Shown here in pieces: positions 6,497 to 39,058 of a stretch of DNA of 54,245 nucleotides. The position numbers were made by a program, and so were the translations under genes. This DNA is from Gracilaria domingensis. Lineage: Eukaryota; Rhodophyta; Florideophyceae; Gracilariales; Gracilariaceae. The stretch covers positions 1 to 54,245 of the forward strand of contig VCMS01000447.1 of assembly GCA_022539475.1 (NCBI GenBank). The letters are read 5' to 3'. Numbering within the stretch: the first letter of the stretch is position 1; every line of letters begins with the position of its first letter. The notes below the pieces were generated by a model that did no database searches, was not told the DNA's origin, and saw only the letters and a list, made by a program, of their open reading frames with translations.

Positions 6497-7224
6497 TAAC
6501 GCAAGGCACGCAGGTTAGACGAAGGGAAGTGACAAGGACACAAACAAGAAGAGTAGAATAAGTAAAGGGGGTAGGCCACCTTCGACCGAGTTTAGTGATC
6601 GGGGACGATCGCAACCTACTAGTACTAACCGCGCACCGCCGCCGTCGCTGCATGCGACATAACAGCACACGCCGTCAAAGTGTACACCTCGAAAACGAAA
6701 GCGCGCGCAAATCATAATACGAATTCAAAACATCTAAATCAAACCGCGCCAAATCCAATGCCAACTCCATGATCCAAAATCGCTCTAAAAAATCAACAAT
6801 TTCCATCTGGCGCAACAAACCCCCTCGCGCAGCTCAGAATCGCACATTCGCTCCAAAATCCTTCGTACTAGCCTAGAATCGCACATAAAGCAAAACCCGC
6901 CCAGAACAGCCTCTATTCGCACATTCTCAGCTACTGCATAACTGGCCAGCACTAGCACACTTCAGCCAATCATAGCGCACCACTTGTAGCATCCGCCACT
7001 CCTGCCCCATACAGCCAGGCACACTTGTCCATACTACATTGCATACACGCATTTGCAGTAGCCAATCATATTGCAGTATCACGTTGGGTTTTCGGAGAGG
7101 CGCATATGCGCTTTTCGCGCGAGGGTGCCCAAAAGTGCCCATGCTCTCCTGCAACTTTGTGTTCCAGGTAATTGGAGACACATTGAAGGACTGCCAGGCA
7201 CTCGACCCTATCCAAACATCAACA
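6497..7224 (-). repeat. Family C 3' LTR (728 bp), TG...TA ends
   Basis: On the minus strand it runs from TGTTGATGTTTGG to GCGTTA. The same repeat recurs at 34448-35176 and 48330-49005. It carries the CCAAT-box/GCGCATATGCGC module (7049-7125) that is also in family A LTRs. The element-strand end is TA, not CA; the solo copy at 48330 with a clean 5-bp target duplication supports that boundary. Confidence 0.88.
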
Positions 7225-10200
7225 CTCCTCTTCGAGTTCCTGACCAAGACCAATTCTTTCCATAATGGCCTGGGCGTCCAGGCTGCCTAGAGGCTTTGTC
7301 AGGATGTCCGAGTCGTTCAATTTACTTGGGACATACAGCACCACAATAACAGACTCCTTGACCAGTTCCCTAATGAAGTGCAGCTTAACATCAATATGTT
7401 TGGCACGACCAGATGGGCAACGCCCGCCTGCACTCCAGTCTATGGCAATCTGATTGTCAGAGTGCATAGGAACAGCCCGGGGACTATCCAGACCAATCTT
7501 AGAGAGTACACGCCTCATCCACACAACCTCCCGAGCAGCCATGGTTAGGGCGTAGTACTCAGCCTCAGCAGTAGACAAAGCAACAGACGACTGCTTCTTG
7601 GCACCGAAGAATACCACTGCAGATCCGACCTTGATCATGTACCCAGACATGGACTTGCGATCGCAGGTGTCACCGGCGTAGTCCGAGTCCACATAGGATT
7701 GCATGTCCAGGGATCCAGCCTCGTAGTTCAAGCCATGTCTGCGAGTTCCTTGCAGGTAACGCAACACTCGCTTCGCCGCCCTGTGGCAGTATGCCGTGGG
7801 GTTGCTCTGGAAACGAGCGAGGATGAGCACCGGGGCCAGAATGTCCACGCGCGTACGCAGTGCCAAGTACAGCAGAGACCCGATCATCTGCTGATACAGC
7901 TGCACATCTTGGGGTGACTTGTCTTCCTCGGCAGAGAAACCAGAGAAGAAGGACTCCACCATTGGACTATGAGCTGGCTTAGAGTTGTCCAGACCGAAGC
8001 GTCGCAGAATTCCTTCGATGTAGATCGTCTGACCAAGGTGCAATCCATTGACACGACCATCGTCATCAATGCTCCATGTCAACTCTACACCGAGGTAGAG
8101 TGTCACTTTGTTCTCAACACGAGTCTCGTACAACCGCTTGAGCTCCTCCAAGATCCCAGATCGTTCCTTGGCAGAGGGCGTGAAGATGAGCAAGTCATCG
8201 ACGTACACAAGGATATAGCAGTATCCATTATGCTCACTAGCTCTCCGAAAGACGCATGGGGCACTCGGTAGTTTCTGGAAACCAATGGAGTTTAGATCAC
8301 GTGTGAACTTAGTATGCCATGCCAAATGGGCTTGCTTCAATCCATACATGGTTTTCTGAAGTTTGTAGCACCGTGAACCAAGACCCGGAATGCCACGCGG
8401 TGACATGACCCACACGTCTTCCTCGAGGTCGCCATTGAGGAAGGCAGTCTTCACATCGACTTGAGCCACAAATATCTGCAAGCACAGCGTCAGGTAGAGG
8501 AAGAACCGCACCAAACTAAATGAAACCACTGGAGCATATGTGTCCATGTAGTTCTCCCCGAAGGTTTGGTGATTACCACCAGCGACAACTCGGGCCTTGA
8601 AGCGATCTACAGACCCATCCGCATTACGTTTAACTTTGAGAATGATATGTGTGGGAAGTGGTTGCTGAGCTGGGGACTGGTCAGCCTTCCAGGTTTTCTT
8701 CGACTCGAGAGATGCCAGCTCTTCCTCAATAGCGGCGCGCCACAAGCTTTGTTCCGTAGGCGTTGCGGACATTGCTTCCTTGAGCGTTGGTTCATCACTT
8801 GTAGTGACCTGGACTCCAGCTGAGGTTGCAGAACCAGCCATGAACCACCTGCGAGGTGCACGACGAGTGCGCTGTGGGTAGCGTGACTCCTGCTGTACAG
8901 GCTCATCTTGCTGCAAAGTAGGGACCTGATCGGTGTCATCGTCCACATCTGAGTCGCTGGAGTCATCATCGTCACTCTCGTCACCACCAGAGTCACTATC
9001 ATTTGACTGGACACTTGGTGCAGCTTCAACGACTTCTGCATCAGGTGCACTTTCTTCTGGAGAATGATCGTCAGCATCAGTTATATCATCAACAGAGACC
9101 TCATCAAGTACATTCCGATCTGTACTGGAGACATCTTCGGTGCTGTGAGACTCTGAATCGGTGAAGTCGGTATCAGATGCGCTTTCATCCTCCATGTACT
9201 CCTCCAAGTACTCTGCACCAGGGAATGAATCTTCGTCAAATGTGACATGACGGGAACGCATGATGCGCGGCAGTCCATCATCGCCAGCGACAAGAATGTC
9301 GTAGACACCATGCTCAAGAGTCTCCAAGTACACCCCCTCAAGTGCACGAGACTCGAACTTGGTTCCACCAGTCATCTTAAGCACAAATGCAGAACAACCA
9401 AACACGCGAGTGTGCTTCAACGTTGGTTTGTTCCCAGTCAATAACAAGAACGGCGTACTCCCAGTAGTGGAATGGGGTACACGGTTACGCACATACAGAA
9501 CATGTTTGACTGCGAAAGGCCACAAGCACTCTGGTAGATTTGCTTGAATGAGCAAAGCTCGAGCAGCTTCTTCCATGGTACGGTTGATGCGCTCGGCAAT
9601 GGCGTTATGTTCCGGGGTGTATGGGGCAGAGAACGATGTATCGTCGAAGGCATTCTCCGCATTCTCCTGCAGAGCGATGTACTCCTTTGCATCGTCAGAG
9701 TGTACCTTCTTCACCACAGCTCCTCCAAGCTGCTTGAGCTTCTGCGCCACTCCGTCATACACATCATTGATCTCACTGCGGTGTTTCATGAACCCTATGA
9801 TCACATAACGCGAGTGATCATCCACAAATGCTGATGCATACTTGAATCGGTCAGGGAAGGACAGGGTGAGTGGACCTATTATGTCGGAGTGCACAGTGTC
9901 ACCAACCTCGGATTCACGAGTAAATACTCCAGGAAATGGAAGCTTGTGTGCTTTCCCGAGACGACAAGGGTGACATACCTCCTTCATGTCTGTGAGCTGT
10001 GGCACACCACTAGCATGCTTGTGCACCATTTGAAGGTCTCTCGGGTTGATGTGCGCCAGTCGGCGGTGCCATAGTTGAGTCAACTCCGGTAATGATGCCT
10101 TCAGCACGCACTGCAGCCCAGCTTCACCAGCGAGTAATGCGTGCTTCGCGCCGAAATGCATGACCGGTTCGGGCAAAGTATACAGGCCAGAACGTTTATC

Positions 10201-11363
10201 GCGCTGTCCGCACCCGACCACCAAGCCATTTTCATGAATCAGGCGAACTTCACGTGCACGGAACCGAGACTCAATAGACTTGTCAGCAAGGCTCCCAACC
10301 GAAACTAGGTTGTACTCCATGTCAGGCACGAGTAGTGCGTCAGTCAACCTTAGATTCACATTTTCAAAAGGCAGAATAACATCTCCACACTTCGTCGCAG
10401 ACACAGTACTCTTGTCCGCCGACCGTATGTGTCGCTCCTCCACATCGTGCAATGAGCTTGGAACGAAGGCAGCTGCAGAGTGGAAGTAATGAGAAGTTGC
10501 TCCACTGTCTGCATAAGTGTCCATTTCCCGTTGTGCAGGTGGCAGGACTGCTGCCTTTTCAAATGACATGCCTGCAATCTCTATCTTGGAGGACTTACCA
10601 GCCGACTTTGCTGACGCTTTAGATCCTCCGGACTTGTCCTTCGCCTTCAAAGCCAACTTGTCGAGTATGCTCTGAGGCAGATGGTTGTCAGGATTGTCCG
10701 AGTTTACAAAGCAACGGTCTTTGGTATGTCCATCTCGACCAAAAAAGTCACAGTGATACCCGCTGCCACTGGCTGCTGCAAGTGCATGTGTGCCAGAAAC
10801 ATCATCCGAATCATTATCATCTCGATGATGTGTGATAGAGGAGGTACCATGAGACTTGTTGGAACCTCTTCCCTTTCCTTTCTTGCGGTTGCGACTGCGA
10901 CCAGTAGTCATATGACGTGCATTATATTCATCGATGAGGGTGGTAGCAACATAGTCCCACGTCAACTCAGAGATCTTCTTGGTACGTAATGCGGCAGCCG
11001 TGGACTTCAGTGAGCCCTGTGGATCAATAGAAGCCAACAACATGGGAGCTTTGTGAGACTCAGGAATGGCAGCATCCTTGCCCATACGATCCAACTGCGA
11101 GAACAGAGCCGTGAATTGGTCGACGTATTCGGACATGTTCTGCCCATTATATGTCATACGGAATAGTTGGGTCTGAACGGCAATCCTAGAAACCGTGCGA
11201 TTCGAAGCATAGCGTGCATCCAGAAACTTGAGCATCTTTGCCGGATCGTCATCCACGTCCATAACCACACGTAAAGGAGCATCACCAAGTGCACAGATGA
11301 TGATTCCACAAGCCTTCTCGCGTTTGGATAGCGTGCGAGTGGCATCAACAGATGATCCCTGAC
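7219..11363 (-). CDS. Copia family C gag-pol, main part (broken from its N-terminus by the B insertion)
   Basis: This encodes about 1,380 residues of a copia polyprotein. In order: the rest of Gag; a zinc knuckle CDFFGRDGHTKDRC (near 10711-10752) in which the second zinc-binding Cys is Phe; the protease box DSGA (near 10500); the integrase HHCC motif (LWHRRLAHIN...C..C); and the integrase catalytic D, D and E in VHSDIIG, HSDDAKEY and HNAIAERINR. An acidic Asp/Ser-rich linker follows, then RT with YVDDLL (near 8200) and RNase H with VDSDYAGD and DILTKPL. The stop TGA at 7219-7221 lies inside the 3' LTR, and the polypurine stretch AAGAGGAG just before it codes for Glu residues. The first 65 residues are at 22749-22943. 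Removing the insertion and one CTGAC copy restores the frame (about 1,444 residues). An apparent start further right, within the B LTR, is an artefact. Confidence 0.93.
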
Positions 11364-12355
11364 TGTTAGGGGTTATAGCTGGGATCGGAAAGTTGACATG
11401 AGGAAGGATGGGGGGATGCAAGGGAAGTTCGCCAGCTCTGGCTCAGATTTTCTTGGAGGTGCTTGAGTCACAACCTATATAGCACTTCTTCGCTACTCCA
11501 TCATGGGACTCCAACTCTGACCAACATGCAACTCACTAACCAGAGACACTCAATACTACCAATCATCTACAGACATAACATGGTAACAGTGCCAAACTGC
11601 TTACAACAGCAGTGCACAACAACGCACAACAGTGTACAACAGTGCACAACAATTCCGTACACTACTGCACAGCAGTGCACAACAATGCACAACAATGCAC
11701 ACCAATGTAGTAGCCATGCACGTCCCTGACAGTGTACCGACACATTTCTACACCACACCACGAGCACCACACATCAACGCAGTCAACAATATGACAGCTC
11801 ACCATAGTAACACGACCATGCATACACACAATGCAACACCTCACCATCATGACCAGCCATGCTTACGGAACATCACATCACACTTCACGTGTTGCTGGCA
11901 CGCTGTAATCTGTACACCACACCGTAATGTGTACGTGCCAGATACCCAAGTCCCACATTATCAACAAGTACCTGTAAACCACATGACGTCAGTCACTTAG
12001 CTGCAACATGTTCCATTCATCCATACACACACATTTGCATGTAGCACAACTCAAACATGGTGTAAACTTCACAACACTGACAGTGCTGCCACCTGTACCT
12101 TGTGTGCACATACATAGCCTTCAACCCTGTACTTCATGACCACTGTACAACCTGTCATCGTTGTACCTTGTGGTCATCCAGCTGAACGATAGCGTTCCAG
12201 TGTAGCCATAAACGTTCAACCCATAATGAGTATACCACACAGCAACGTAGTATACCAAACAGAACAACATCAATCTCGGTTTCACGTATCAAGGTACCAT
12301 TCTAGACTCCACACATCTCAACTGCTTGATGTCAGTGACAGCATGACTTCCAACA
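11364..12355 (-). repeat. Family B 3' LTR (992 bp)
   Basis: On the minus strand it starts TGTTGGAAGTCATG and ends CTAACA. It contains a degenerate 10-bp tandem repeat (GCACAACAGT-like) at about 11612-11702 and a reversed TATA-like CTATATAG near 11477. It differs from the 5' LTR at only about six positions, for example TTAGGGG for TTAGAGG at the end and ATTATC for ATCATC near 11958. Confidence 0.92.
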
Positions 12356-12389
12356 CCCTCCTCTGTTACTGACTTCAAGCAACCAGCGC
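12356..12389 (-). promoter_or_regulatory. Family B polypurine tract and 3' internal end
   Basis: On the minus strand this reads GTTGCTTGAAGTCAGTAACA followed by GAGGAGGG, directly against the LTR. The same segment precedes the B LTR at 33347. The last five bases (12385-12389, AGCGC) are one copy of the A2 target duplication. Confidence 0.85.
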
Positions 12390-13175
12390 TGATAGAGGTT
12401 GAAGCTGAAAGGGAAGGTTGAAGAAAGGATAGGGGAATGAAGGGAAGTTCGCCAGCTCTGGCACGGATTTTACTTGGAGGTGCTCGAGTCACCGCTTATA
12501 TAGAACTACTTTGCGCAACCATCGCACAACTCCAACTCCAAGCAATACCTAAACCACTAGCTAGAGACACCCAATACTACCAATCATCTTCTAACATAAC
12601 ATGGTAACACTGCCACACTATCATGACAGCTTACAACAACAAAGCACAACAACGCACAACAGTGCACAACCGTGCACATCAAGTTACGTGCCTACACATA
12701 ACCATGACCATGCACAGATTCACATAGTGCCAACACACTGTAATCCGTACACGCCACCATAACAGTTACGTACAAGCTCACCAACCAACACGTCACCACA
12801 AACTCACTCCAAGTCCTACGTCACCAACAATACCACAGTGTAAACCTCTTGACAGCGCATCTACTCTTCACCATAGTGCCAAAGTCACATGAAGCTGTCC
12901 TACATGTCCACGTACATACGTGTGTACCCTGTGCATCATGTACAGTATGCCCAGTGTACTAGCTACACACGTGTACCCCGGAAACAACCCATTAGCGCCA
13001 CAACACTTGTACCAACCACAATGCATATGACCATTTGCAGTAGCCAATCACAAGCCCGTTTCACGTTGAGTTTGCGCAGAGGCGCATATGCGCTTTTCCA
13101 ACGGCACCCTCCAAAACAGCCCATGTTCCCCAGCACTTTTGGTTTTCAGTGACAGCGCAGGGTCAACATCCAACA
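12390..13175 (-). repeat. A2 3' LTR (786 bp)
   Basis: Plus-strand ends are TGATAGAGG and CATCCAACA. The TATA box, CCAAT box and GCGCATATGCGC palindrome (near 13083) are all present. It is preceded on the element strand by the polypurine tract at 13176-13188. Confidence 0.93.
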
Positions 13176-13188
13176 CCCCCCCTCTGTC
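13176..13188 (-). promoter_or_regulatory. A2 polypurine tract
   Basis: On the minus strand GACAGAGGGGGGG abuts the LTR start TGTTGG. It lies seven bases past the pol stop codon at 13196-13198. Confidence 0.85.
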
Positions 13189-13195
13189 ACTGACT

Positions 13196-16100
13196 TCAAA
13201 CTTCTATGTGGATAACACCACCGGCTTCGCGGAACTTCTCGTGCTTCACTCGCGCAAGTGGCTTATTCAGCATGTCGGCAACCATGGAATCCGTCGGGCA
13301 GTAGAACAGCACAATCGACTTGGCCTGCAGAGCTTCTCGAGTGAAGTGGAACCGAATGTCAATGTGCTTGGTTCGCCTGTTCACCACTCCATTTCGAGCA
13401 AGGTCAATGCTGCCCTGGTTGTCAACATACATGGGAGTGGGTTCAACCAGCAGCTTCACAGACCCGTCTGCTTCCATACCAATCACACTGCCAATGCCGT
13501 TCCAAAGTCGCCTAAGCCAGATCGCCTCCTTGGTGCCAGAGCACAAGCTCACGTACTCAGCCTCTGCACTCGACAGAGCAACTACCTCCTGTTGACGAGA
13601 AGACCACGACACAGCACCACCGCACATCATGAACAAGTATCCACTAGTGGACTTGCGGTTGGCAACATCGCCAGCCCAGTCAGAGTCCACATAGCCGTGC
13701 AGTTGCAAATCGGTGCTGGAGCCATACGTCAACCCGAACGTGGTAGTGCCATTGAGGTAGCGAAGAACACGCTTGACCGCCTTCCAGTGAGTGTTTCCCG
13801 GCTTCTCAACATACTTGGCCAGCTTAGCCACAGCATATGAGATGTCTGGACGAGTTCCCACAGACAGATACATGAGGCAGCCAATCGCCTGACGATACGG
13901 TACATGCGTGAGCACTTCCTCCTCAACAGACAAGTCCACACCGCACTCCATAGGAGTGTCAACGGGTTTCGACAGCTGCATGCCAAATCGCTCCAGGACC
14001 TTGTTCGTGTACGCTGACTGAGTCAAGTACAGCTCTCGCTTGGTTCTGTCTCGATGGATTTCAAATCCAAGAACCATGCGAGCTTCTTTGAGGTCCTTCA
14101 TGCGGAAACGACTTGACAGCTCTGCCTTCACACGTTCCACGGTTTTCATGCTCGGACTCGCAATCAGCAAGTCGTCAACATACAGAGCAATGATAACCAA
14201 GAAACCCAGTATGATCCCGGTGTAGACACACTCGTCTGCGTCATTCGGCTTGAGGTGCATTTCACCAACAAGGAAGGCGTATATCTTGGCGTGCCACTGT
14301 CTTGGTGCTTGTCTAAGCCCATAGATCGCTTTCTTCAGTCGGCACACCAAGTCCTCCTTTCCCTGCTGTGTGAATCCCATTGGCTGCTCCATGTACACTG
14401 TCTCGTCAAGGTCACCGTTCAGAAAGGCAGTCTTCACATCCATCTGGTGCAAGTGGAAGTCTCGTACGGCAGTCACTGACAGGATCATTCTGATGGATGT
14501 GAACTTCACCACAGGTGCAAATGTCTCTGAGAAGTCCACACCCTCGATCTGCAGGAAGCCTCTTGCAACTACACGAGCCTTGTAACGCACTGTCGGTTCA
14601 CCAGTTGACGAAGCCTCATACTTCTGTACATACACCCACTTGGACGAAATCACGTTGCTGTCTGCTGGCCTTGGCACTAGATCCCATGTGTCATGCTCCA
14701 TCAATGACTCGTACTCACTCTTCATCGCCTTCTTCCAAGCTTCGGAATCAGGACGTGACACTGCGTCACCGTACGACGAAGGAGTATCATCACTGGCTGT
14801 AAGGAAAGCACTGGCACCACGCCACCACGAGGATGGCGTCTTTCTCTGACGTGTGGATCTACGAAGGGGCTGCGTCTCTGTCACTTCCGGCTCATCTTGT
14901 GGAACTGGTGTGGTGTCTTCATCCGTACTGGCATTCGTGGTACTCTCATGAGAAGCTGGTGCAGAAGGATCATCTTCAGAATGATCGGCGGATGTGTCGG
15001 AGGTTGGGGCTTCAGCAGATACCGACTTGTCGACCAAGTCGATATCCGCATAGTCCTCGTGTTCAGAGTGCTCGTCACTTTCAGTTGCAGAGCACTCGTC
15101 AAACCTCACATCTCGTGACACAATCACCTTCTTCTTCTGGCTGTCCCACAACTTGTACCCGTGGGAGCCTGAAGTGTACCCAATGAAGATGGCCTCCACT
15201 GCACGCTCTTCCAGCTTCTTCAACTTGTGATCAACCACCTTGTACCAGCAACGGCTACCAAACACACGCAGATTGCTCAGATCAGGCTTCTGTCCATGCC
15301 ACAGCTCAAACGGAGTCACGTCACTCGGAAGCGCTTTGCAGGTCACTCTGTTGCGCACATACACAGAAACATTCAGAGCCTCAGCCCAAAAGCTTTTTGG
15401 CACATTCTTGTGATGCAATATTGACCTGACCAAGTCCATGAGTGTGCGATTGAACCTCTCGGCAAGCCCGTTCTGCTGTGGATTATAAGGCACAGTTCGC
15501 TGATGCTCAATACCGTACTGCTCAAGCTTTTCGGAGAACCGATTGGACAAGTACTCACCACCATTGTCAGTGCGTAATGCACGCAACACACTCTTGCGAG
15601 CGGTGATGGTTAACACTTTCCTGCCCATCTGGTTCTCCACAAACCTGAGCCACTTGATGAACATCCGGAACACCTCATCCTTCGTCTTGAGCATGTACAA
15701 GAAGCAGTAGCGGCTGTGGTCATCGATGAATGTGACAAAGTAGTGCGAGCCTCCCAAGGACTTCACGTTCACTGGACCCGATATATCAGAGTGTACCAGG
15801 TCCAGTACGTGTTCAGCTCGTTCCCCCCCTTGCTTGGGAGTCGGAGCACGGGTTGCTTTGCCCACTACACAAGAGCCACACACATCCAGCTTCTGAGCCA
15901 CATCCACATTCAGACCTGACACAACACCGTTTCGAGCCATCTGCTTGATGCCTTCCACATTCACATGAGCCATTCGAGCATGCCAAAGAGACAAGTCTGA
16001 CACAAGCGCACTGTCCGTGTCCGTGAACTGATCTGCAGCAGTGCAAAGGTAGTACAGGTCTTTGACGCGGCGCCCAACGGCAACCACTTTTGACCCCTTG

Positions 16101-17229
16101 TACACACATACCTTTTCTTTGTCAAACACTACCGTGCAGCCCAGATCACAAATCTGTGACACAGACAACAAATGGTACCGTAAGTTGGGCACGTGTACCA
16201 CCTGCTTTAGCTTGCACTTACGCTTGGACCCTTCAACTGTCAGATCGAGCTCCACACTTCCGTGACCAACAGACTGCAACTTGGAATCATTGCCGATACT
16301 CACACCCGACGACACCTTTGTCTCGTACGTTTGGAACATTGAGTCATCATAAGTCATGTGGCAGTAGCTCCAGAGTCAACAATCCAGTCACTGTTAGTGG
16401 CCTTGTCGGCACCATTCGCAATGAGGCATACAAAGTCAGAATCGCTGCCGCCCGTACCTTGCTCATCGTTGAGCGCGGTATGTACACTTGGGTGAGCAGC
16501 ATCGATCTGATCCTTGTTAGCCCCATCACGTTGCTTTTTGAAACAGTTCTTCTGGATATGACCCTTTATGCCACAATAGTAACACACAACCGACTTCAAT
16601 GACTTCCTACGAAACTGGCGTCCCAAGAGTGCAGCATCAACACCGGACTCCTCCTTGGCACGATCACTCATACGTTGCTCTTCTTGCAATAGACGGCTCT
16701 TCACAAACTCCATAGTGAGTTGGCGATCTCCGATCGTGGTGTCAATTGCAACAATGAGGTGCTCAAAACGATCCGGAAGTCCACATAGAGCAGCCATAGC
16801 AATGTCCTCTTCTTCAACGTTGACGTCCATACTCTTGAGGTCGGAGGCCAAGTGCCGAACACGATTGATGAATTGCAACATCTTCTCGTCCTCGCGCATT
16901 TTGACAGAGTAGAAGGCACGTCTGGCGTTGATTCGGTTAAGAAGAGTCTTACGTTGAAACACATTGCAAATGGCCTTCCATGCGTCAGCAGCAGTCTCGA
17001 TGTCTCGAATGTGATCCAAGTGCTCGTCGGCAAGCGTGAGTCCAATGATAGCTCTAGCCCTTTCGTCGCGGATTTGCCACTTTACCAGTTCCTCTTCATC
17101 CGTGGGTGCAGAAGTGGTGAGATGGTTCTTGAGGTCTTTCAGTGCAAGTACATACTGAATCTTCTGCTTCCAAGTATGGAAGTTATCCTCACCCAACTTC
17201 TCGATCTTGAGCCCACTAAACGAGTCCAT
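13196..17229 (-). pseudogene. A2 gag-pol polyprotein with one single-base frameshift
   Basis: The start is the ATG at 17227-17229 (MDSFSGLKIEK), which is conserved in A3, A4 and A6. The product would be about 1,344 residues. Gag covers about 1-210, and the zinc knuckle CYYCGIKGHIQKNC (216-229) is complete. Protease DSGA is at 285-288. Integrase HHCC falls at about 417-454, with catalytic Asp near 482 and 555 and Glu near 591. An acidic, Thr/Ser-rich linker follows, then RT with YVDD near 1017-1020 and RNase H to the end. A missing base at about 16359 (GTGGCAG where A4 has GTGCGCAG) breaks the frame six residues after DSGA. It is the only lesion, so it may be a very young mutation, a consensus error or, less likely, a programmed shift; A3 and A4 are intact at this site, which argues against programming. 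Confidence 0.93.
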
Positions 17230-18460
17230 GATGTAAGAGAGGAACTGCAGCGAACCAGATAATGCGGTGGCAGACAGGCGGCAATAGCAAACGACAGCGG
17301 TAAACAACAACAGCAAACAACAACAACAAACAACAACAAACAACAATAACAACAAACAACAACAACAATAAAGATGAATAGTCGGGTGCAAAAGGAACTA
17401 AGATTCCTGGTACCCTAGGGAGTCGGACCCCTGACCCCCGGAGACTCTCCGGGTAAGAAACGACTTCTGCAGTCTACCTCCTCCTGCGTTCTAGGAGAAG
17501 GTGCGTCGCTCTCTACGAGACTTCCAGAGGATGGTTAATGACCGAAGATATGCCTTCACCAAGTAAAACCCTCTCTGGTCTCTTGCAAGAACTTGCGCGA
17601 CCCTGAAACTGCAGGTACTATGACAAACCGAGGTACGCTTCTAGCAAGCAAACAATGAAGTTCACAAGCGGCCTGATCCTAAAAAGGAGGTCAGCCTACG
17701 ACACGTCGCCTCCCCGCACCACCGAAGCAGTACGGATCAAAAGCTCGTTTCAGTTTGCCTTCGCCACAGATCAAGAACCCAACACAAAGTCAGGTCAGCA
17801 ACAATAAAGGTGGACCACCTCCTGTCCAGTGCAGTACGTCACGGCACCCCGTCCACAAATGCCCCCGCGAAGAATACCAGGTCTTTCGACCGACACCGTT
17901 ATCTGCCCCTAAGGACCGGTGGGAAACTCGCAAGACGGAACAAATGCTTTGGTTCAAGCCGCCAGACTAACGTCCCCGATTGCTCGGATCAACCGCTCGT
18001 CGCACCGAAACTCAAGTGATCACCACACCTGCCGAGCACACACGCAGTGCACGGACTTCAACAGAAACGAATGCTGAGCACAACACACAAGTGCACAGAC
18101 TTCAACAACACAAGGTCCTCAACCTCTCGGATCAGAACCCACAAAGACGACGTGGGGATCCCAACAATAATAACAGAGGGAGACCAAACGAAGCGGATAG
18201 CGATCGACAACACGGGCAACAACGAGCGCCCAAACACAATCACGATAGAAAGTCAACGTCGAACCACCACCAACAAAACGCCCTCAGGGAGGAACGAACG
18301 ACCGAAAGAAGAAAGTCAACACCGACCAACGATACGGTCAACACACCCGACGCAACGGAGAAGGGAACGAAAGGGAAAACAGCGAAGCGGATGAACGGCG
18401 GTGAGGGAGAGCGGCGAGAATCAGCGGCGAGAGGGAACGATAACGGCAGAGGTCAGCGGG
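17230..18460 (-). mobile_element. A2 leader, structured 5' untranslated region
   Basis: On the minus strand it runs from the primer site to the gag ATG. It holds the shared hairpins (plus-strand arms CCCGGAGA/TCTCCGGG near 17437-17453, AGGAA/TTCCT near 17399-17414) and a (TTG)n-like tract at 17300-17370. An in-frame ATG at 17389-17391 would add 54 hydrophobic Leu/Val/Cys residues to Gag. The tract is not kept in frame in A3 or A6, so I treat it as untranslated. Confidence 0.8.
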
Positions 18461-18475
18461 GCTGGGCCCATAACC
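18461..18475 (-). promoter_or_regulatory. A2 primer-binding site (initiator tRNA-Met anticodon arm)
   Basis: The plus strand GCTGGGCCCATAACC abuts the LTR, so the element strand is GGTTATGGGCCCAGC, complementary to the initiator tRNA-Met anticodon arm. Confidence 0.85.
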
Positions 18476-19258
18476 TGATAGAGGTTGAAGCTGAAAGGGA
18501 AGGTTGAAGAAAGGATAGGGGAATGAAGGGAAGTTCGCCAGCTCTGGCTCGGATTTACTTGGAGGCGCTCGAGTCACCGCTTATATAGAACTACTTTGCG
18601 CAACCATCGCACAACTCCAACTCCAAGCAATACCTAAACCACTAGCTAGAGACACCCAATACTACCAATCATCTTCTAACATAACATGGTAACACTGCCA
18701 CACTATCATGACAGCTTACAACAACAAAGCACAACAACGCACAACAGTGCACAACCGTGCACATCAAGTTACGTGCCTACACATAACCATGACCATGCAC
18801 AGATTCACATAGTGCCAACACACTGTAATCCGTACACGCCACCATAACAGTTACGTACAAGCTCACCAACCAACACGTCACCACAAACTCACTCCAAGTC
18901 CTACGTCACCAACAATACCACAGTGTAAACCTCTTGACAGCGCATCTACTCTTCACCATAGTGCCAAAGTCACATGAAGCTGTCCTACATGTCCACGTAC
19001 ATACGTGTGTACCCTGTGCATCATGTACAGTATGCCCAGTGTACTAGCTACACACGTGTACCCCGGAAACAACCCATTAGCGCCACAACACTTGTACAAC
19101 CACAATGCATATGACCATTTGCAGTAGCCAATCACAAGCCCGTTTCACGTTGAGTTTGCGCAGAGGCGCATATGCGCTTTTCCAACGGCACCCTCCAAAA
19201 CAGCCCATGTCCCCAGCACTTTTGGTTTTCAGTGACAGCGCAGGGTCAACATCCAACA
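18476..19258 (-). repeat. A2 5' LTR (783 bp)
   Basis: Ends TGATAGAGG and CATCCAACA on the plus strand. It is followed at 19259-19263 by the AGCGC target duplication. It has the same promoter landmarks as the 3' LTR. Confidence 0.94.
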
Positions 19259-19263
19259 AGCGC

Positions 19264-19705
19264 TCCTGGTCAAGTACTTGCTAAGTAACAAGTCGGGCAG
19301 TCAAGAAACCAATGTCACTGCAAATAAGCCTTACGATGGCCAACGGTGACAACTAAACATCAAGTGCAGTTAGTGTGTGTCCAAGCCCACGGCTGTACCG
19401 TTCTAGCAGTATACCAAGATCATAGTTCTGTTCTGTATTATTCGGATGTTCTGGAAACACCCTCCTTTTGTCACACACTCTGAACTTCTTACTCATCCTT
19501 CGTATGGCAACGAAGACAACAGCTTCCGGTTCAAACAGATATCAACAACAGACAGTGAGAGCTAAGTCTGAGGATGTTACTCTGACACCCTCCCTCTCTC
19601 ACTGGCTTTGAACTTCTCTCGGAACGAAAATGCACCTCAGAGTCCTTCACAAAAGGGATCTAGACGTCCATAAGTGACCACATTCTAGACACCGAAAACA
19701 ATGTT
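19264..19705 (-). mobile_element. B internal 3' region with two polypurine-like sites
   Basis: No gene is visible. On the minus strand two segments resemble a pol end plus polypurine tract plus LTR start: ACAAAAGGAGGGTGTT (about 19456-19471) and AGAGAGGGAGGGTGTC (about 19584-19599). Each is preceded by GAAGTTCA-like sequence, as in the 3' end of A pol. A perfect small hairpin has arms 19498-19503 and 19510-19515 (CTTCGT/ACGAAG). The part 19264-19460 is homologous (roughly 70-75% by eye) to 33120-33330, which precedes another B LTR. Confidence 0.6.
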
Positions 19706-20624
19706 GCTCCGAGCATGTAACACATAACAACCTCTCGGAGCACCATTAATCACAGTACTTCAACCAGACATGCAAACACACGCAACCTTCTGGTTCGAGA
19801 CCGATTTTCTGAACACCGGACATGCAACAAGTAGCAACCTTCCAGTTCAACATCACCTTCGTAACAGCTGGACATGCAAAAGAGAGCAACCTTCCAGCTC
19901 AACAAATCTCTTCAAACAGCGGACATGCAAAATCACAGCAACCTTCCGCGAATAACACACAAAGAGAATTGCAACACAGGCATCCTGGACTTGCAAAATG
20001 ACAACCTTCCAGGCCCCGTCCATACAAAATGATGTCCTACACACTCAGGCATGAAACAGTCAACCTCCTGAGTCAAACAGCTCTTTCATTCACACCGGAC
20101 ATGCAAACACATAGCAAACTTCCAGTGACAACAAACTGAAACAAAGAGCATAACAAACATCACAAGCAATGAAACAAACACTCAGGCATGAAACACTCAA
20201 CCTCCTGAATCGAACAGCTCTTCCATAACCAGACATGCATACATGTAACAACCTCCCGGTAACATGAAAACAACATGGAGAGCAAAACACACATCACAAG
20301 TGATCAATAATACACTCAGGCATGAAACACTCAACCTCCTGAGTCAAACAGCTCTTCCGTACACACCGGACATGCAGACAAATAGCAACCTTCCGGTACA
20401 ACATAAGTAAAGCGAAGAACACAGCACAACTCCCGGGCATACATAATGACAACCTTCTGAGCCTGCGTAAGGAAGTCACGATAACAACGGACAAGTAACA
20501 TCGCAACTTTCGAAAGTTGATACAAAGAAGAGCTCAGACATGTTCAACAACAAACACCCAGGAAGTGTCATAAACGAATCTCACACACACAGTCTCAGGC
20601 AGGAAACACTCCACCTCCTGAACT
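19706..20624 (-). repeat. Array of covarying hairpins in element B
   Basis: At least 13 stem-loops of about 30-36 nt. Perfect arm pairs: 19706-19713/19734-19741 (8 bp), 19762-19768/19789-19795 (7), 19866-19872/19893-19899 (7), 19919-19923/19945-19949 (5), 19984-19989/20008-20013 (6), 20043-20049/20067-20073 (7), 20182-20186/20204-20208 (5), 20314-20320/20338-20344 (7), 20365-20370/20392-20397 (6) and 20595-20599/20617-20621 (5). Pairs with one mismatch lie at 19815-19820/19841-19846 and 20093-20099/20121-20127; a weaker, imperfect pair lies near 20228/20260. Stems differ (AACCAGA, AGCTGGA, GCGGA, CCTGGA, ACTCAGG) but stay paired. Loops share CATGCAA...GCAACCT (type I) or CATGAAACACTCAACCT (type II). 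From 20041 to about 20440 type II and type I alternate as a tandem unit of about 135 bp, three times. Function unknown. Confidence 0.8.
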
Positions 20625-21740
20625 GTAGCGAGAATAACAACAACAAACTGCAAGCGATCGGGTGCATAAGGAACTAAGATTCCTGGTACCCTAGGGAGTC
20701 GGACCCCTGACCCCCGGAGACCCTCCGGGTAGGAAACGACTTTCTTCTGTCTACCTCCTCCTGCGTTCCAGGAGAAGGCGCGTCGCTCTCTACGAGACGT
20801 CCAGAGGATGGTTAGTGACCAAAGATATGCCTTCACCAAGTTAAACCCTCTCTGGTCTCTTGCAAGAACTTGCGCGACCCTGATACTGCAGGTACTATGA
20901 CAAACCGAGGTACGCTTCCAGCAAGCAAACAATCAAGTTCACAAGCGGCCTGATCCTGAAAAGGAGGTCAGCCTACGACACGTCGCCTCCCCGCACCACC
21001 GCAGCAGTACGGATCAAAAGCTCGTTTCAGTTTGTCTTCCCAACAGATCAAGAACCCAACACACAGTCAGGTCACACACAACAAAGGTGAACCACCCCTG
21101 TTCGATGCAGTACGTCACGGCACCCCGTCAACTTCAGCACTCGCGGTACTACCAGGTCTTCGACCGACACCGTTATCTGCCCCGAAGGACCGGTGGGAGC
21201 CCGCTCGACAGCGCGTCCGAATTGGTTCAAGCCGCCAGACTAACGTCCCCGATTGCTCGGATCAACCGCTCGTCGCACCGAAACCCAAGTGATCACCACA
21301 AATGCCGAGCACACAGGCAGTGCCCGGACTTCAACGAAAAAACGAATGCTGAGCACAACACACAAGTGCACAGACTTCAACGACAACGGTACTCAACCCC
21401 TCGGATCAGAACCCGCAAACACGACACGGGGATCACAACAACGAAAACAGAGGCGAGAAACCAACAAAGCGGATAGCGATCGACGAAAACGAAAATGAAC
21501 TAGAAACCAAACAGAATCACGAAAGTAGAACAGCGTCGAGCCACTACCACCACAACGCCCTCAGGGAGGAACGCAAACCAAAAGGGAAATACAACACCAC
21601 CAAACCGGTCAACGACAAGAAACACGACGAAAAAAAACATCGAAAACATCAACAACGGCGTTCAACAACATGGACGGCGGTGAGGGAGAGCGGCGGAAAG
21701 GGAAACCTCATGACGAACGACAACGGCAGAGGTCAGCGGG
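20625..21740 (-). mobile_element. B element leader
   Basis: Nearly identical to 2180-3237 and clearly homologous to the A leader. It contains the four shared hairpins between about 20665 and 20785. The short open frames are unconserved shadows in a low-complexity, purine-rich context; I see no gene. Confidence 0.8.
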
Positions 21741-21755
21741 GCTGGGCCCATAACC
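21741..21755 (-). promoter_or_regulatory. B primer-binding site (initiator tRNA-Met anticodon arm)
   Basis: GCTGGGCCCATAACC on the plus strand, directly against the 5' LTR. It is identical to the family A site, so A and B can share a primer. Confidence 0.85.
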
Positions 21756-22748
21756 TGTTAGAGGTTATAGCTGGGATCGGAAAGTTGACATGAGGAAGGA
21801 TGGGGGGATGCAAGGGAAGTTCGCCAGCTCTGGCTCAGATTTACTTGGAGGTGCTTGAGTCACAACCTATATAGCACTTCTTCGCTACTCCATCATGGGA
21901 CTCCAACTCTGACCAACATGCAACTCACTAACCAGAGACACTCAATACTACCAATCATCTACAGACATAACATGGTAACAGTGCCAAACTGCTTACAACA
22001 GCAGTGCACAACAACGCACAACAGTGTACAACAGTGCACAACAATTCCGTACACTACTGCACAGCAGTGCACAACAATGCACAACAATGCACACCAATGT
22101 AGTAGCCATGCACGTCCCTGACAGTGTACCGACACATTTCTACAGCACACCACGAGCACCACACATCAACGCAGTCAACAATATGACAGCTCACCATAGT
22201 AACACGACCATGCATACACACAATGCAACACCTCACCATCATGACCAGCCATGCTTACGGAACATCACATCACACTTCACGTGTTGCTGGCACGCTGTAA
22301 TCTGTACACCACACCGTAATGTGTACGTGCCAGATACCCAAGTCCCACATCATCAACAAGTACCTGTAAACCACATGACGTCAGTCACTTAGCTGCAACA
22401 TGTTCCATTCATCCATACACACACATTTGCATGTAGCACAACTCAAACATGGTGTAAACTTCACAACACTGACAGTGCTGCCACCTGTACCTTGTGTGCA
22501 CATACATAGCCTTCAACCCTGTACTTCATGACCACTGTACAACCTGTCATCGTTGTACCTTGTGGTCATCCCAGCTGAACGATAGCGTTCCAGTGTAGCC
22601 ATAAACGTTCAACCCATAATGAGTATACCACACAGCAACGTAGTATACCAAACAGAACAACATCAATCTCGGTTTCACGTATCAAGGTACCATTCTAGAC
22701 TCCACACATCTCAACTGCTTGATGTCAGTGACAGCATGACTTCCAACA
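21756..22748 (-). repeat. Family B 5' LTR (993 bp)
   Basis: Plus-strand ends are TGTTAGAGG and TTCCAACA, followed by the CTGAC duplication. It is the partner of 11364-12355 and contains the same GCACAACAGT-like tandem repeat (about 22004-22094). Confidence 0.93.
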
Positions 22749-22943
22749 CTGACCATCAGTACCGGTCGTCTCAGTTGAGAAAGACTGCTCAGCATCAGTG
22801 TTAACCACATTCCAGACACCTTTGATGCGACAGGCGGCACGAAGTCGGTGCCTCCAGAGTGCGTAATCCTCACCACGCTTGCCATGGAAGCGAGAAATCT
22901 TCATACCAGAGTTGGTATCCGTTTCCTTTTCGGAGTCAGACAT
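22749..22943 (-). CDS. Copia family C gag, first 65 codons
   Basis: From ATG at 22941-22943 (MSDSEKETDTNSG) this encodes a Gag N-terminus with the copia-type motif YALWRHRLRAAC. It ends at the CTGAC duplication where B is inserted. The reading frame continues at 11358 once the insertion and one duplication copy are set aside. The start is the first ATG after the leader and precedes recognisable Gag homology by about 15 codons. Confidence 0.88.
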
Positions 22944-23507: not shown

Positions 23508-24329
23508 NNNNNNNNNNNNNNNNNNNNNNNNNNNNNNNNNNNNNNNNNNNNNNNNNNNNNNNNNNNNNNNNNNNNNNNNNNNNNNNNNNNNNNNNNNNNN
23601 NNNNNNNNNNNNNNNNNNNNNNNNNNNNNNNNNNNNNNNNNNNNNNNNNNNNNNNNNNNNNNNNNNNNNNNNNNNNNNNNNNNNNNNNNNNNNNNNNNNN
23701 NNNNNNNNNNNNNNNNNNNNNNNNNNNNNNNNNNNNNNNNNNNNNNNNNNNNNNNNNNNNNNNNNNNNNNNNNNNNNNNNNNNNNNNNNNNNNNNNNNNN
23801 NNNNNNNNNNNNNNNNNNNNNNNNNNNNNNNNNNNNNNNNNNNNNNNNNNNNNNNNNNNNNNNNNNNNNNNNNNNNNNNNNNNNNNNNNNNNNNNNNNNN
23901 NNNNNNNNNNNNNNNNNNNNNNNNNNNNNNNNNNNNNNNNNNNNNNNNNNNNNNNNNNNNNNNNNNNNNNNNNNNNNNNNNNNNNNNNNNNNNNNNNNNN
24001 NNNNNNNNNNNNNNNNNNNNNNNNNNNNNNNNNNNNNNNNNNNNNNNNNNNNNNNNNNNNNNNNNNNNNNNNNNNNNNNNNNNNNNNNNNNNNNNNNNNN
24101 NNNNNNNNNNNNNNNNNNNNNNNNNNNNNNNNNNNNNNNNNNNNNNNNNNNNNNNNNNNNNNNNNNNNNNNNNNNNNNNNNNNNNNNNNNNNNNNNNNNN
24201 NNNNNNNNNNNNNNNNNNNNNNNNNNNNNNNNNNNNNNNNNNNNNNNNNNNNNNNNNNNNNNNNNNNNNNNNNNNNNNNNNNNNNNNNNNNNNNNNNNNN
24301 NNNNNNNNNNNNNNNNNNNNNNNNNNNNN
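23508..24329. other. Assembly gap (822 N)
   Basis: An unsequenced run. The C 5' LTR (about 730 bp), the rest of the C leader, the remainder of A7 and the N-terminus of the SET protein would all have to lie here or beyond, so the true gap is probably larger than 822 bases or the join is wrong. Confidence 1.
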
Positions 24330-27959: not shown

Positions 27960-30944
27960 TCAATATGTGGTCGATGTTTGTTGCGGGGGTAAAACCTCGA
28001 AATACCGGACGAATGCCACCTCTGGTGCGGTAAGTGCGGAATCAAGGAGAGATATTCGAATCAGAGCGACTACCTGGGCAACCCAAGTCTCTGAATCTTC
28101 TCCGCTTACCAATACAGTGGAAAACTTTGGCTTTCTACTGGGACCAAATGCTGGAGAAGCGAAGACACGTTGGATGATGGGGTATTTGGGTCGTCCAAGC
28201 TTAAGTGCCTTAGAAGACGAATCGAAGTGTTCAAGAGTCGGAACGAAACCGACTTTCACGAGGGCCGAATTCACCAGAGTTATCCTTGTCTTTTCTGGGA
28301 AGTATGTAATAGAGTGCTCATCCAGTGTTTCTTTCACGAGACTGAGGAAAGGAGGAAGGGCCTGTTCACCAATTTGATCAAGAATCGACCTTGTGTCCGT
28401 ACTTGAGAACATTTCTCTAACAGCAGTCCATGTTTTTGAACTGGACATACTTGAAACACAATGTTGAAGAGCTCGTAAAGTGAAAGAACGCCCTCTCATT
28501 GCAAACCGAGGAAGCTGTGTGGAAGTTCCTGGTAAACCTGGATTACGCTGGTAAGGAGTATTGCCATTCCATTGCTTTCTAACATGTCCGTGCTCAATGG
28601 AGCGAATAGTCTCCTCCACAGCCGTTGCTGTTCTTCTGGACGTCTTTTTGTAGTGTCTTTTAAATAGCAGGTGTGCATGTTCGTATATGCCTGCGTCGTA
28701 GTACTTGATACTTCCCAGACGGCGAATATCGTCCACGAGATGATCGAGAAGATGAAACTTCAGAGTTCCCAGTCTGGAGGGATGACAATCCGCCAGAGTC
28801 TTTGTTGCGGAACGCTTGAAGGCTTTAATCTCCGAACTAAGACACAGGAAGGAGCTTTCAGTCCAATACGGGTCACGATTGTATCTGAATAAGGTCGAAA
28901 GCAAGTCCGAGTACTGGGAGAAAACTGTTGTGATTGGGGCAACGTCCTGTTCTCCACAGCATATGTCAAAGAATGCTCCTATGAAGAGAAAGACCATGTC
29001 AAGTGCTTTGTAGTTTTTGGCCTCCAGCATTCCACGGAGACCGTCTTTCGTGAAGATACCATTCAAAGATTTGCCTTTCTCCTGCGTGGAGAAATCGATA
29101 TGTAAACCTTTGGCAGGAGAATCGCGTTCTATGGCAGCTAGAATTGCGTTTGCATGGTTGAGGAGTTGGGTGCGTATCGTTCGAAATGAACGCGATGCAG
29201 ATGTTCCTATTGTGGTGCACAGGGTGTCTGACTGCAGTCTCTCGATTGTGGCCGTTTTTATCAACTTTGAGATGCCGAGATGCAAGTTGTGTAATGGTTC
29301 GAATGAGAACAGACTGTATGGAGACAATCCCGGGATCATTCCAAGGCTTACGGAAGTTTCGAGGAACGAAGGAATGAGAGATATGGAATTTGAACGCATC
29401 AGAGTATCCGCTTGAGATCTCCTCTCCCTCGCACGACGTGGACGTCTTTCCGCCTCGTCTTTTTGTGCATGTTGCAAGATAGCTGTGTATGTCTTTCGGA
29501 TGCTTTTCGTGTGCTTTTGAGAACGTCCGTTGAATGAGGTGGGAATAGGACTGCATAAAGATGAGCGAGGGGCTTTGCATCTATGACACGGGCTTTCTGT
29601 TTTGGTCCCATGAAGAATGGACAGAATGTCCTTAGCCTCAGGAATATCCGCACAACAACTTGCAAGCAGAGGATGGCACACTCGACTTAGTTTGTCTTCG
29701 CCGATGAACTGAAAACCTTTCTGCGTGAGATTTAGAATGGGCTCCAGGACTTGACGGAGAGATTCTTGAAGGATTTGCATCCTGGACTCGCGTAGAGACT
29801 TGCGAGAAACAAATGGCATTGCGTCTGCTTCAGATGCGGAAACCTCGATCAGTGTGGTAGGGAAGTATGCCACTACTGTGAGGTCATCACGGATACACTT
29901 ACGGCGAAGCTCGTCGGAGAAGTTGAGAAATATGAGGTGAAGAGGATAGGCGGTAACCGATGTTTGCTTTAGAGTTGTTGAAGACTTATCGGTGTATACC
30001 TGCAGAAGACCTACGAAAGATTCACTGTAACTTATTTCTTGGGAGTACCACACTATTCTACTATCCAAAGAGCCCATGAACATTTCCTTAAGTTTTGAGG
30101 TGGCGTCTCTTGCGAGAGAGCCGGACATGGGGTGAGATATTTTCGTGGAGTGGGTCTGAGGTATAGGGTGGAAGAATGTGTTTTCGTTGTTAGCCAACTG
30201 GAGCTGTTTCACAAGTGTCTGAACGGGGTCTCTCGTGTAGAGGGTGGCGCTGAACTTACATCCTTCTGGCGAGACAGTTCTGCGATTGAAACCGTCCTTT
30301 GAGGCGTATCGTTCGAAAATGGCGTTCTTCAGTTCTGTACAGCGCTTGGAACTGGTTATGGTCTCGTTGAATCGCTTTTGCGAGAATCGCGGGTCCCGAA
30401 GTAGCCCAATTAGCTCGTTCGCCTCACGATGACCAAGGTTGGAAGCTACTGAAGCCAGACAAACCGTGAGATAATCCATATGCAAATCACCAAGGGCCTC
30501 CTCAGAAGGCACTGGGCGGGAACTGCTTCCGTGTTCTCGCTCTAATGACGCGGGACCCGGGGAAGGAGAAACACAATGCGAAGTGTCCGGAATGGGAGGG
30601 GCGCACGGAGTGGGGTCGACGATGTCCTCGGACACTGGAGGCTCGGGAAGGCGACAAGGGTCAGTGACCGTTTCGGAAGATGCGAGCGCGCGCGCGGAAA
30701 GCTTGAGACGCTTGCTTCTCCGAATGGGCCGGCTATTGTCGTCTTCCAGCGCTGCTTTCAGACGAAACTGGCAATGGTTGACATGCTGTTGAAGAGATAA
30801 GACTCCTCGGCGAGTAACGAAGGGGCACCCACGCTTCTTATGTGTACAGTAGTAGACCATGGGAAGAAGAAATGAACGAGAAACGACGACAAAGACTGCA
30901 AGGGAAGGGCGTCCGAAGGGAGAAGGAGGTCGAGCGACAGTCAA
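27960..30944 (-). CDS. Plavaka-type DDE transposase (CACTA-related)
   Basis: This is a cut-and-paste transposase of up to 994 residues. The preferred start is Met29 (ATG at 30858-30860), because the N-terminal Zn finger follows at once (C33, C40, H54, H57/C58). The Plavaka core is recognisable: VYTDKSSTT (316-324, first catalytic Asp), then AYPLHLIFLNFSDELRRKC, the family's YP-LTIGN-RRK region. A CAD followed by an ILHG...SPCHRCKAP zinc pair comes next (Asp near 433, Cys 453 and 456), then FEPLHNLHLGISK (548-560). A Ser/Pro-rich linker separates the finger from the core (about 60-150). No stop or frameshift interrupts it, so it may be intact. Neighbouring SET and coiled-coil genes face it and may be passengers. 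Terminal inverted repeats could not be located; one side falls in the gap. Confidence 0.8.
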   Translation of the reverse strand: MTVARPPSPFGRPSLAVFVVVSRSFLLPMVYYCTHKKRGCPFVTRRGVLSLQQHVNHCQFRLKAALEDDNSRPIRRSKRLKLSARALASSETVTDPCRLPEPPVSEDIVDPTPCAPPIPDTSHCVSPSPGPASLEREHGSSSRPVPSEEALGDLHMDYLTVCLASVASNLGHREANELIGLLRDPRFSQKRFNETITSSKRCTELKNAIFERYASKDGFNRRTVSPEGCKFSATLYTRDPVQTLVKQLQLANNENTFFHPIPQTHSTKISHPMSGSLARDATSKLKEMFMGSLDSRIVWYSQEISYSESFVGLLQVYTDKSSTTLKQTSVTAYPLHLIFLNFSDELRRKCIRDDLTVVAYFPTTLIEVSASEADAMPFVSRKSLRESRMQILQESLRQVLEPILNLTQKGFQFIGEDKLSRVCHPLLASCCADIPEAKDILSILHGTKTESPCHRCKAPRSSLCSPIPTSFNGRSQKHTKSIRKTYTAILQHAQKDEAERRPRRARERRSQADTLMRSNSISLIPSFLETSVSLGMIPGLSPYSLFSFEPLHNLHLGISKLIKTATIERLQSDTLCTTIGTSASRSFRTIRTQLLNHANAILAAIERDSPAKGLHIDFSTQEKGKSLNGIFTKDGLRGMLEAKNYKALDMVFLFIGAFFDICCGEQDVAPITTVFSQYSDLLSTLFRYNRDPYWTESSFLCLSSEIKAFKRSATKTLADCHPSRLGTLKFHLLDHLVDDIRRLGSIKYYDAGIYEHAHLLFKRHYKKTSRRTATAVEETIRSIEHGHVRKQWNGNTPYQRNPGLPGTSTQLPRFAMRGRSFTLRALQHCVSSMSSSKTWTAVREMFSSTDTRSILDQIGEQALPPFLSLVKETLDEHSITYFPEKTRITLVNSALVKVGFVPTLEHFDSSSKALKLGRPKYPIIQRVFASPAFGPSRKPKFSTVLVSGEDSETWVAQVVALIRISLLDSALTAPEVAFVRYFEVLPPQQTSTTY

Positions 30945-31403
30945 TATCGACGTGTTGCTCAGAACGGAGAATATATTTTGAGTTTAAATCACGTGCTTTC
31001 GTTCAAAAAGGAACGTAGGTACACGTCGACCTCAACACAAGGGTGTACTTCTCGTATTATCTACCACTGGTTATAAACCTGTGGTTTCCCAGCGTTGTAC
31101 GCTGTACACTTGTCCAATCTCGCACAGAAAAATAAATCTCTTCCCTCCGCCGCCGCCCCCGCCCGTCCGAGGTCCGACCTTTTGTTACCGTCGTGATTAG
31201 GCGTACCTCATTCTCTTTCTCCGCCCTCGTCGGACGCCTCCATAAAGCGGACAGCATCCGTATCTCACGGATGTATTCCGTGCAGTCTTTTCGTACGTGC
31301 TTCCATTTCCTTCTACGTATCTTTGTTCTAAACTAACCAATCCTCACCACGTCTCTTCGCGCTCTGCGACATGTACACGGCAAGAAAACGGCTTTGGGTT
31401 ACT
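30945..31403. other. Upstream region of the transposase, no gene recognised
   Basis: Short open frames only. A CCGCC-rich patch lies at about 31147-31170. It presumably contains the transposase promoter; no clear TATA or known motif is visible on the minus strand. Confidence 0.4.
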
Positions 31404-32126: not shown

Positions 32127-32226
32127 CGCTCCATCATGGAGATATGGTACATGTAATATAGCGAAGTAGTGGTTAGCAAAAGCGGTCGATAGAAGAATAG
32201 ATACGAATAAAACGATATGATTTCAT
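32127..32226. other. No feature seen
   Basis: Short AT-rich unique stretch between the hairpins and the tandem duplication. Confidence 0.4.
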
Positions 32227-32866
32227 AATGGGCATCATCTGTACTAGCACCAGTATTCCATGCGTTGCAGGGTATCATTCCGCAGAAGTTATCGTGCAAT
32301 GTGCACCTTAATGGAAACTGAACCTAGACTTCGCGAAATACAGTTCAGGTAGCCCTCGACTAAAGAACTAGCACGAGTGGAAAACCCACCAGTATTTACT
32401 GCACAGCGATTCTGGACGACCCAAGCAATTATCTGCAAATTTTGAAATAATTGATCTCGATATTTTTTCAAAAAATTTACTGGACGACCCTTGCCACTTT
32501 CTGGACGACCCTCGCCAAAAACTAGCATCTGCAAGAGACAGACGATAATGGACATCATCTGTACTAGGAACAGTATTCCATGCGTTGCAGGGTATCATTC
32601 CGAAGAAGCTATCGTGTAATGTGCACCCTAATGGAAACAAAACCTAGACTTCGCGAAGTACCGTTCAGGTAGCCCTCGACTAAAGAACTAGCACGAGTGG
32701 AAAACCCACCAGTATTTACTGCACAGCGATTCTGGACGACCCAAGCAATTATCTTCAAATTTTGAAATAATTGATCTCGATATTTTTTCAAAAAATTTAC
32801 TGTACGACCCTTGCCACTTTCTGGACGACCCTCGCCAAAAACTAGCATCTGCAAGAGACAGACGGT
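32227..32866. repeat. 320-bp tandem duplication with internal CTGGACGACC repeats
   Basis: Two copies (32227-32546 and 32547-32866) at an exact 320-bp offset, about 95% identical. Each unit holds three TCTGGACGACC/ACTGGACGACC motifs and an AT-rich inverted repeat (AAATTTTGAAATAAT ... TTTCAAAAAATTT). It opens with TAATGG-CATCATCTGTACTAG. Unknown family; it is directly joined to an A LTR fragment at about 32868. Confidence 0.8.
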
Positions 32867-32867
32867 A

Positions 32868-33022
32868 ATGCATATGACCATTTGCAGTAGTCAATCAGAA
32901 GCCCGTTTCACGTCCACTTTGTGCAGAGGCGCATATGCGCTTCTCTAAGGACACCCTCTAAACCAGCCCATGCTCCCCAGCACTTTTGGTTTTCAGTGAC
33001 AGCACAGGGTCAACATCCAACA
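32868..33022 (-). repeat. Family A LTR fragment (first 155 bp of the element strand)
   Basis: Contains the CAGTAG-CAATCA box, the GCGCATATGCGC palindrome (near 32931-32942) and the LTR terminus CATCCAACA at 33022. The rest of the LTR is absent. Confidence 0.85.
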
Positions 33023-38006: not shown

Positions 38007-38059
38007 TCCCTGCGCATGGCGTTGTAGCTCTTGGTCATTGTGCTCTCATGGGTTGGGGA

Positions 38060-39025: not shown

Positions 39026-39058
39026 CTCTTTTCGGGTGAATAAAACTTCTTCTACGTT

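Follow-up and report, generated by a model that had tools for sequence, protein, structure and literature searches.

A non-autonomous, LARD-like Ty1/copia element of Gracilaria domingensis, here called B, carries in its interior a tandem array of hairpins with arms that differ from unit to unit. Pairing between units exceeds what tandem descent gives, and the RNA motif is very probably real and under selection. In sense orientation, units consist of a variable outer stem, an internal loop AGGU/UG, a 3-bp inner stem and a variable apical loop. The window, i.e. the whole stretch of 54,245 nucleotides that was analysed, holds the features listed in Table 1.

Table 1. Elements A and B and the units of the hairpin array, in window coordinates.
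Feature	Position	Strand	Remarks
B, non-autonomous Ty1/copia-type LTR element	11359..22753	-	including target duplication; split by A; from flanks, self-BLAST and uninterrupted copies
5' LTR of B	21756..22748	-	993 bp; 99.5% identity to 3' LTR
3' LTR of B	11364..12355	-	
Primer-binding site of B, GGTTATGGGCCCAGCC	21740..21755	-	directly adjoins 5' LTR; read from sequence
Leader of B	20698..21755	-	~83% like leader of A (17421-18474); self-BLAST
Hairpin array	19706..20624	-	14 units (u1-u13, u16) and 2 decayed
B, from array toward 3' LTR side	19259..19705	-	without model matches
A, coding Ty1/copia element inside B	12389..19258	-	no model match
LTRs of A	12389-13175 and 18475-19258	-	99.4% identical
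gag frame of A	16354-17397	-	
pol frame of A	13196-16375	-	
Hairpin u1	19706..19741	-	outer stem 8-9 bp; inner stem UGU/ACA
Hairpin u2	19762..19795	-	
Hairpin u3	19815..19846	-	
Hairpin u4	19866..19899	-	
Hairpin u5	19919..19949	-	
Hairpin u6	19984..20013	-	3' side of internal loop AG instead of UG
Hairpin u7	20043..20073	-	type II; inner stem UGA/UCA
Hairpin u8	20093..20127	-	internal loop AGUU
Hairpin u9	20180..20210	-	type II
Hairpin u10	20228..20260	-	many wobbles; weak fold
Hairpin u11	20314..20344	-	type II
Hairpin u12	20365..20397	-	
Hairpin u13	20432..20461	-	two A.C mismatches; weakest among the 14
Decayed units u14, u15	loops 20492-20509, 20539-20558	-	
Hairpin u16	20594..20622	-	type II; inner stem GGA/UCC

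B is 4.5 kb long and non-coding, with the minus strand as sense. The 5-bp target duplication CTGAC (11359-11363 and 22749-22753) brackets the whole element, its LTRs end in TG...CA, and uninterrupted copies are present elsewhere in the genome (L030, L031 and L046). In order of transcription, B comprises the 5' LTR, primer-binding site, leader, array, positions 19705-19259, the inserted A (19258-12389) and, past this insertion, a short segment bearing the polypurine tract, followed by the 3' LTR. Both the primer-binding site, which presumably resembles the half-tRNAiMet primer type of copia elements, and the polypurine tract adjoin the LTRs, as read from the letters. The interior of 2.5 kb is non-coding; the sole listed open reading frame of at least 180 aa is antisense (20901-21476). 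A reading made earlier from the sequence only had assigned the array to a non-autonomous retrotransposon, and the two LTRs, the target duplication and the gene-less interior support this. Because of the identity between their LTRs (Table 1), B and A are both young. The nest appears to be triple (7219-22753), A lying in B and B apparently in the gag region of a further copia element, P, whose gag-pol frame (7219-11442) has its N-terminal part removed at the 3' LTR of B. The genome gave 14 matches to the phycobilisome linker family on 9 contigs, in keeping with a red algal host; such linkers mark red algae, cyanobacteria and glaucophytes. Elsewhere in the window, a tandem duplication of 320 bp (32225-32870), an N run within a frame bearing a SET domain (23508-24329), a frame of 1007 aa with a Plavaka transposase domain (27960-30983) and more retroelement-like frames (36453-40870) were observed.

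The 14 units were aligned in sense orientation over 37 columns, with decayed u14 and u15 omitted. The unpaired 4x2 internal loop, 5'-AGGU / UG-3', is exact in 12 of them. The inner stem covaries (UGC/GCA, UGU/ACA, UGA/UCA and GGA/UCC), with wobble forms in u6, u10 and u13. Mean majority between units was 0.98 in the internal loop, 0.81 in the inner stem, 0.79 in the apical loop and 0.64 in the outer stem. All six arm pairs quoted in the sequence-only reading were recovered where it had placed them, and its count of at least 13 hairpins is borne out by two decayed units plus 14 others, among which u10 and u13 fold poorly (z of the isolated units -0.2 and +1.3, respectively). Its two-hairpin unit of ~135 bp applies to 20041-20403 only; a 52-bp repeat with one hairpin was found at 19812-19947. 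The conserved segment, described there as loop throughout, is made up of the AGGU/UG internal loop, the covarying 3-bp inner stem and the apical loop. CAUG occurs at the 3' side in 11 of the 14 units. In sense RNA, type-II hairpins (20041-20624) show AGGAGG, ~10 nt and AUG, which resembles a bacterial ribosome-binding site, probably by coincidence.

The array holds nine pairs of perfect arms, with each arm 6 nt or longer and a loop of 15-22 nt between them. The same count in dinucleotide shuffles of the array had a mean of 0.95 and a maximum of 4 (0/300 reached nine), and in 107 overlapping 919-nt pieces from the rest of the window a mean of 1.46 and a maximum of 4. RNAalifold, run with no structure supplied, returned the same fold, with 9 of 10 pairs doubly changed. 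With the structure given, 89.0% of the 154 cells of the 14 units were paired versus 71.6% in shuffles (0/500 reached the observed value), 10 of 11 pairs were changed on both sides (1/500) and further pair types numbered 23 (11/500). Choosing the structure on the same units favours it, a bias limited by the unaided RNAalifold run and by controls in which partners were slid by 1-3 columns, where pairing fell to 24-45%.

Shared descent was modelled by a tree-aware null, in which the observed number of substitutions was placed on the unit tree, independently per column and from a paired root, under two transition biases. For the 14 units, nine core pairs were used and the two outermost pairs, u14 and u15 were left out. 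Here, 97.6% of cells were paired and 32 were doubly changed, values each reached by 0/2000 simulations; null pairing had means of 69 and 75% and maxima of 86.5 and 89.7%, and doubly changed cells had means of 5.4 and 4.4 and maxima of 18 and 17. Following addition of the decayed units, 92.4% of core cells were paired against a null maximum of 84.7%, and when all 11 pairs of the 16 units were considered the share was 85.2% of 176 cells, the null maximum being 80.1% (0/2000 in both cases). The compensatory change between units and the tandem-repeat origin put forward earlier are both supported, and the change exceeds what shared descent gives. Arms that are random given a tandem origin, the outcome which the earlier reading had set against its own proposal, were found neither with nor without the decayed units.

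The genome contains at least 53 array stretches: 49 of at least 400 nt, the window included, and four more loci. A model built from the window units (R1) was run on 30 of 48 array loci and gave 437 matches, all within arrays and on the sense strand (tables read by eye). In the window, R1 found nothing beyond the array better than E 0.6. An origin of the array from A was considered and rejected, as A yielded no model match up to E 5. The type-II pattern occurs at 126 genome places (control 0); among the matches listed (100 of 126), the four outside the loci that were analysed are C162:102226, C426:24575, C435:5960 and C435:39121. A strict 20-base pattern had 0 matches in viral contigs, and Rfam at gathering score had 0 matches in the whole window. 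Head-to-tail B elements with common LTRs (L028:155-7385 and L042:1806-9461) fit unequal recombination. The array itself would have expanded as units of 52 bp and ~135 bp were duplicated in tandem, and the hairpin stems would have changed sequence under selection to stay paired.

The tree-aware and R-scape-style tests excluded copies in which a unit had more than three additional gaps. With the 167 distinct rows obtained from copies, no simulation (0/300) attained the observed pairing or double changes, and 19 and 9 of 300 attained the number of extra pair types. An R-scape-style single-pair test over all 666 column pairs returned 0 at E<0.05, with 14 as with 167 rows; in each run the top three pairs fall inside the structure. 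The minority fraction among genomic copies was lowest in inner stems and internal loop (0.022), higher in outer stems (0.028) and highest in apical loops (0.030) and spacers (0.032), and G.U and A.C departures were about equal in number (outer stems 21 vs 23, inner stems 6 vs 5). Genomic copies mostly decay neutrally, and the covariation signal stems from older divergence between units. Covariation across copies, to which the earlier reading had pointed as a check, is weak: the array region of the 49 copies is 87.5-100% identical to that of the window, stems vary nearly as much as spacers do, and single pairs all fall short of significance.

In the fold of the full sense array, outer-stem probability was above 0.7 in 11 of 16 units, 0.59 in u7, 0.15 in u10 and 0.00 in u13-u15. 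Full-length folding gave z = -1.15 for sense and -5.89 for antisense, and the antisense strand or the DNA may be the level of action. The sense array does not fold unusually well compared to its shuffles (2/20 fold as well) because it is G- and U-rich, with 67% G+U; the leader and LTRs are also G/U-rich (61-63%). Wobble asymmetry was rejected as proof of strand: with the outermost pair omitted, 11 G.U versus 2 A.C cells in sense give p=0.011 against an expectation of one-half, and match the expectation from GT-rich composition (p=0.53). From the earlier claim of selection on RNA or a cruciform, pairing beyond descent was upheld, and wobble pairs do not separate the two. Based on LTR-element biology, not on the folding numbers, we infer that sense is the acting strand.

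Element A was assigned to copia by Pfam; its Gag carries one CCHC zinc knuckle and has 44 proteins as relatives. B is related to gag/pol copia elements of this kind through the leader in common with A and through A-type LTRs on array elements. Most copies of the leader and array interior have a B-type LTR on one side or both. A-type LTRs flank this interior on both sides at L050:7-4262 (LTRs 100% identical over 778 bp) and at L045 (99.6% over 480 bp), with arrays ~95% like that of the window. Because the same leader and array sit between B-type and A-type LTR families, this interior recombines with the A lineage by LTR exchange. Such exchange fits template switching between a pair of RNAs within the same particle, so that B and A probably share particles. 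The 3' LTR at L047:2-983 is a mosaic, part A-type and part B-type. A short element at 1394-4255 has A-type LTRs around a leader-like interior of 1.28 kb without array. In the copy of A studied here, gag and pol are in two frames (13196-17397); a related copy at 52827-54092 has one frame from gag into the next domain.

An unpaired motif repeated in stems of free sequence has the layout of a multi-copy protein-binding site. Gag binding, action as a decoy and processing by an enzyme, the roles suggested in the earlier reading, are candidate functions. B could plausibly, though we put this forward with caution, be a LARD-like parasite in which the coding region has been replaced by a multivalent protein-binding array, likeliest for A-like Gag. 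B keeps its LTRs along with the primer-binding site, the leader and the polypurine tract, and the tandem array stands where gag-pol would be. Its sense genomic RNA would fold in vivo and the repeated internal loop would be bound by a protein, most likely the single-zinc-knuckle Gag of A-like elements; many sites would favour uptake of B RNA into A particles. That the array is a platform for this Gag is a tentative suggestion, preferred because B needs the proteins of another element, swaps LTRs with the A lineage and has G/U-rich RNA. Retroviral nucleocapsids prefer unpaired G within G/U-rich RNA. Against Gag as ligand, A has no such hairpin, which means that the array does not multiply a signal found in A, the shared leader is a more obvious packaging region than the array, and the G/U richness noted above is not special to the array. 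In more general terms, it is possible, and no firmer than that, that B is a parasite that has given up its genes for a multivalent aptamer, a natural equivalent of the engineered MS2 array, with at least 12 internal-loop copies capturing a helper or host protein; the helper RNA itself would then not bind the captured protein via the hairpin motif.

The array might instead bind a host protein and serve the gene-less RNA as a nuclear-export or stability element, by analogy with the CTE of simple retroviruses and its repeated internal loops. The non-coding transcript, the near-identical asymmetric internal loop in varied helices and the lack of a counterpart in coding A agree with such a role, which we consider rather unlikely, there being neither a candidate host factor nor an Rfam match. 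Unit number differs among copies, from 12-16 in fuller arrays (L010 and L012, 12; L030, 14; L023 and the first array of L028, 16) to 11 and 9 in truncated ones (L009 and L011, respectively), as would suit a spacer or structural filler giving a compact RNA of suitable length with no specific partner. This is improbable, however, since filler requires no conserved loop and the unpaired AGGU/UG is near-invariant despite changing stems.

A sponge or decoy that sequesters a regulatory or silencing protein of the host would profit from many sites per RNA and from the number of array stretches, but no host target RNA was found and we regard it as very unlikely. AGGTTG-N8-TGCATG occurs at 144 genome places (7 for the reversed control), and eight off-array copies were present among the matches listed (100 of 144), none of them (0/8) with a stem; a host singleton ancestor of the hairpin was likewise not found among these eight. 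Absence of selection, with arms kept by template-driven repair or reverse-transcriptase template switching (quasi-palindrome correction) or present as DNA cruciforms, would accord with a wobble test that is blind to strand and with the antisense strand folding further from its shuffles, but is hardly to be expected, as palindrome correction should also close the internal loop, whose sides are non-complementary in 14 units, and inner and outer stems covary across this unpaired gap.

Most non-coding interiors of gene-less LTR elements lack an explanation, and it is not settled how such elements compete for machinery that others encode. In B, the interior can be broken down into a single recurrent RNA motif that is open to testing, has near-invariant bases and comes with natural stem variants. 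The motif is absent from A, the young coding relative of B. The partner bound, the effect of dose (12-16 units) and any gain in packaging can therefore be measured directly. In the open-licence literature surveyed, judged by titles and the beginnings of abstracts, no LTR element with a hairpin array was found, and a core in which a single covarying hairpin recurs in tandem has no precedent there.

LARDs (large retrotransposon derivatives) are gypsy-type elements of grasses with LTRs of ~4.4 kb. In the part of the literature consulted, LARDs such as Sukkula resemble B in being LTR elements with a protein-free core, and B has a kilobase-scale conserved non-coding interior with conserved RNA secondary structure; B differs in being copia-type and algal, with 993-bp LTRs and a core in which a single motif is repeated in tandem. 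It is termed LARD-like, not LARD, because it is not gypsy-type with very long LTRs. In the TRIM Cassandra, a 5S-like RNA resides in the LTRs. Gene-less LTR elements with conserved RNA structure, namely LARDs and TRIMs, are known from the consulted part of PMC7215508, and Cassandra, with its 5S rRNA-like sequence, is described there as a gene-less LTR element with structured RNA, as is proposed for B. The array of B, in contrast, is internal and matches no Rfam family. Retrozymes are, like B, gene-less retroelements carrying functional RNA motifs; these are hammerhead ribozymes, which self-cleave, whereas the window has no Rfam match. The Mason-Pfizer CTE has internal loops that recur within a helix and are bound by a single protein; the likeness to B is one of description, the CTE having two loops of different sequence. 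Engineered MS2 arrays line up hairpins whose stems differ and whose contact bases are constant, and so parallel the array of B in layout, although they are man-made and built on a different motif.
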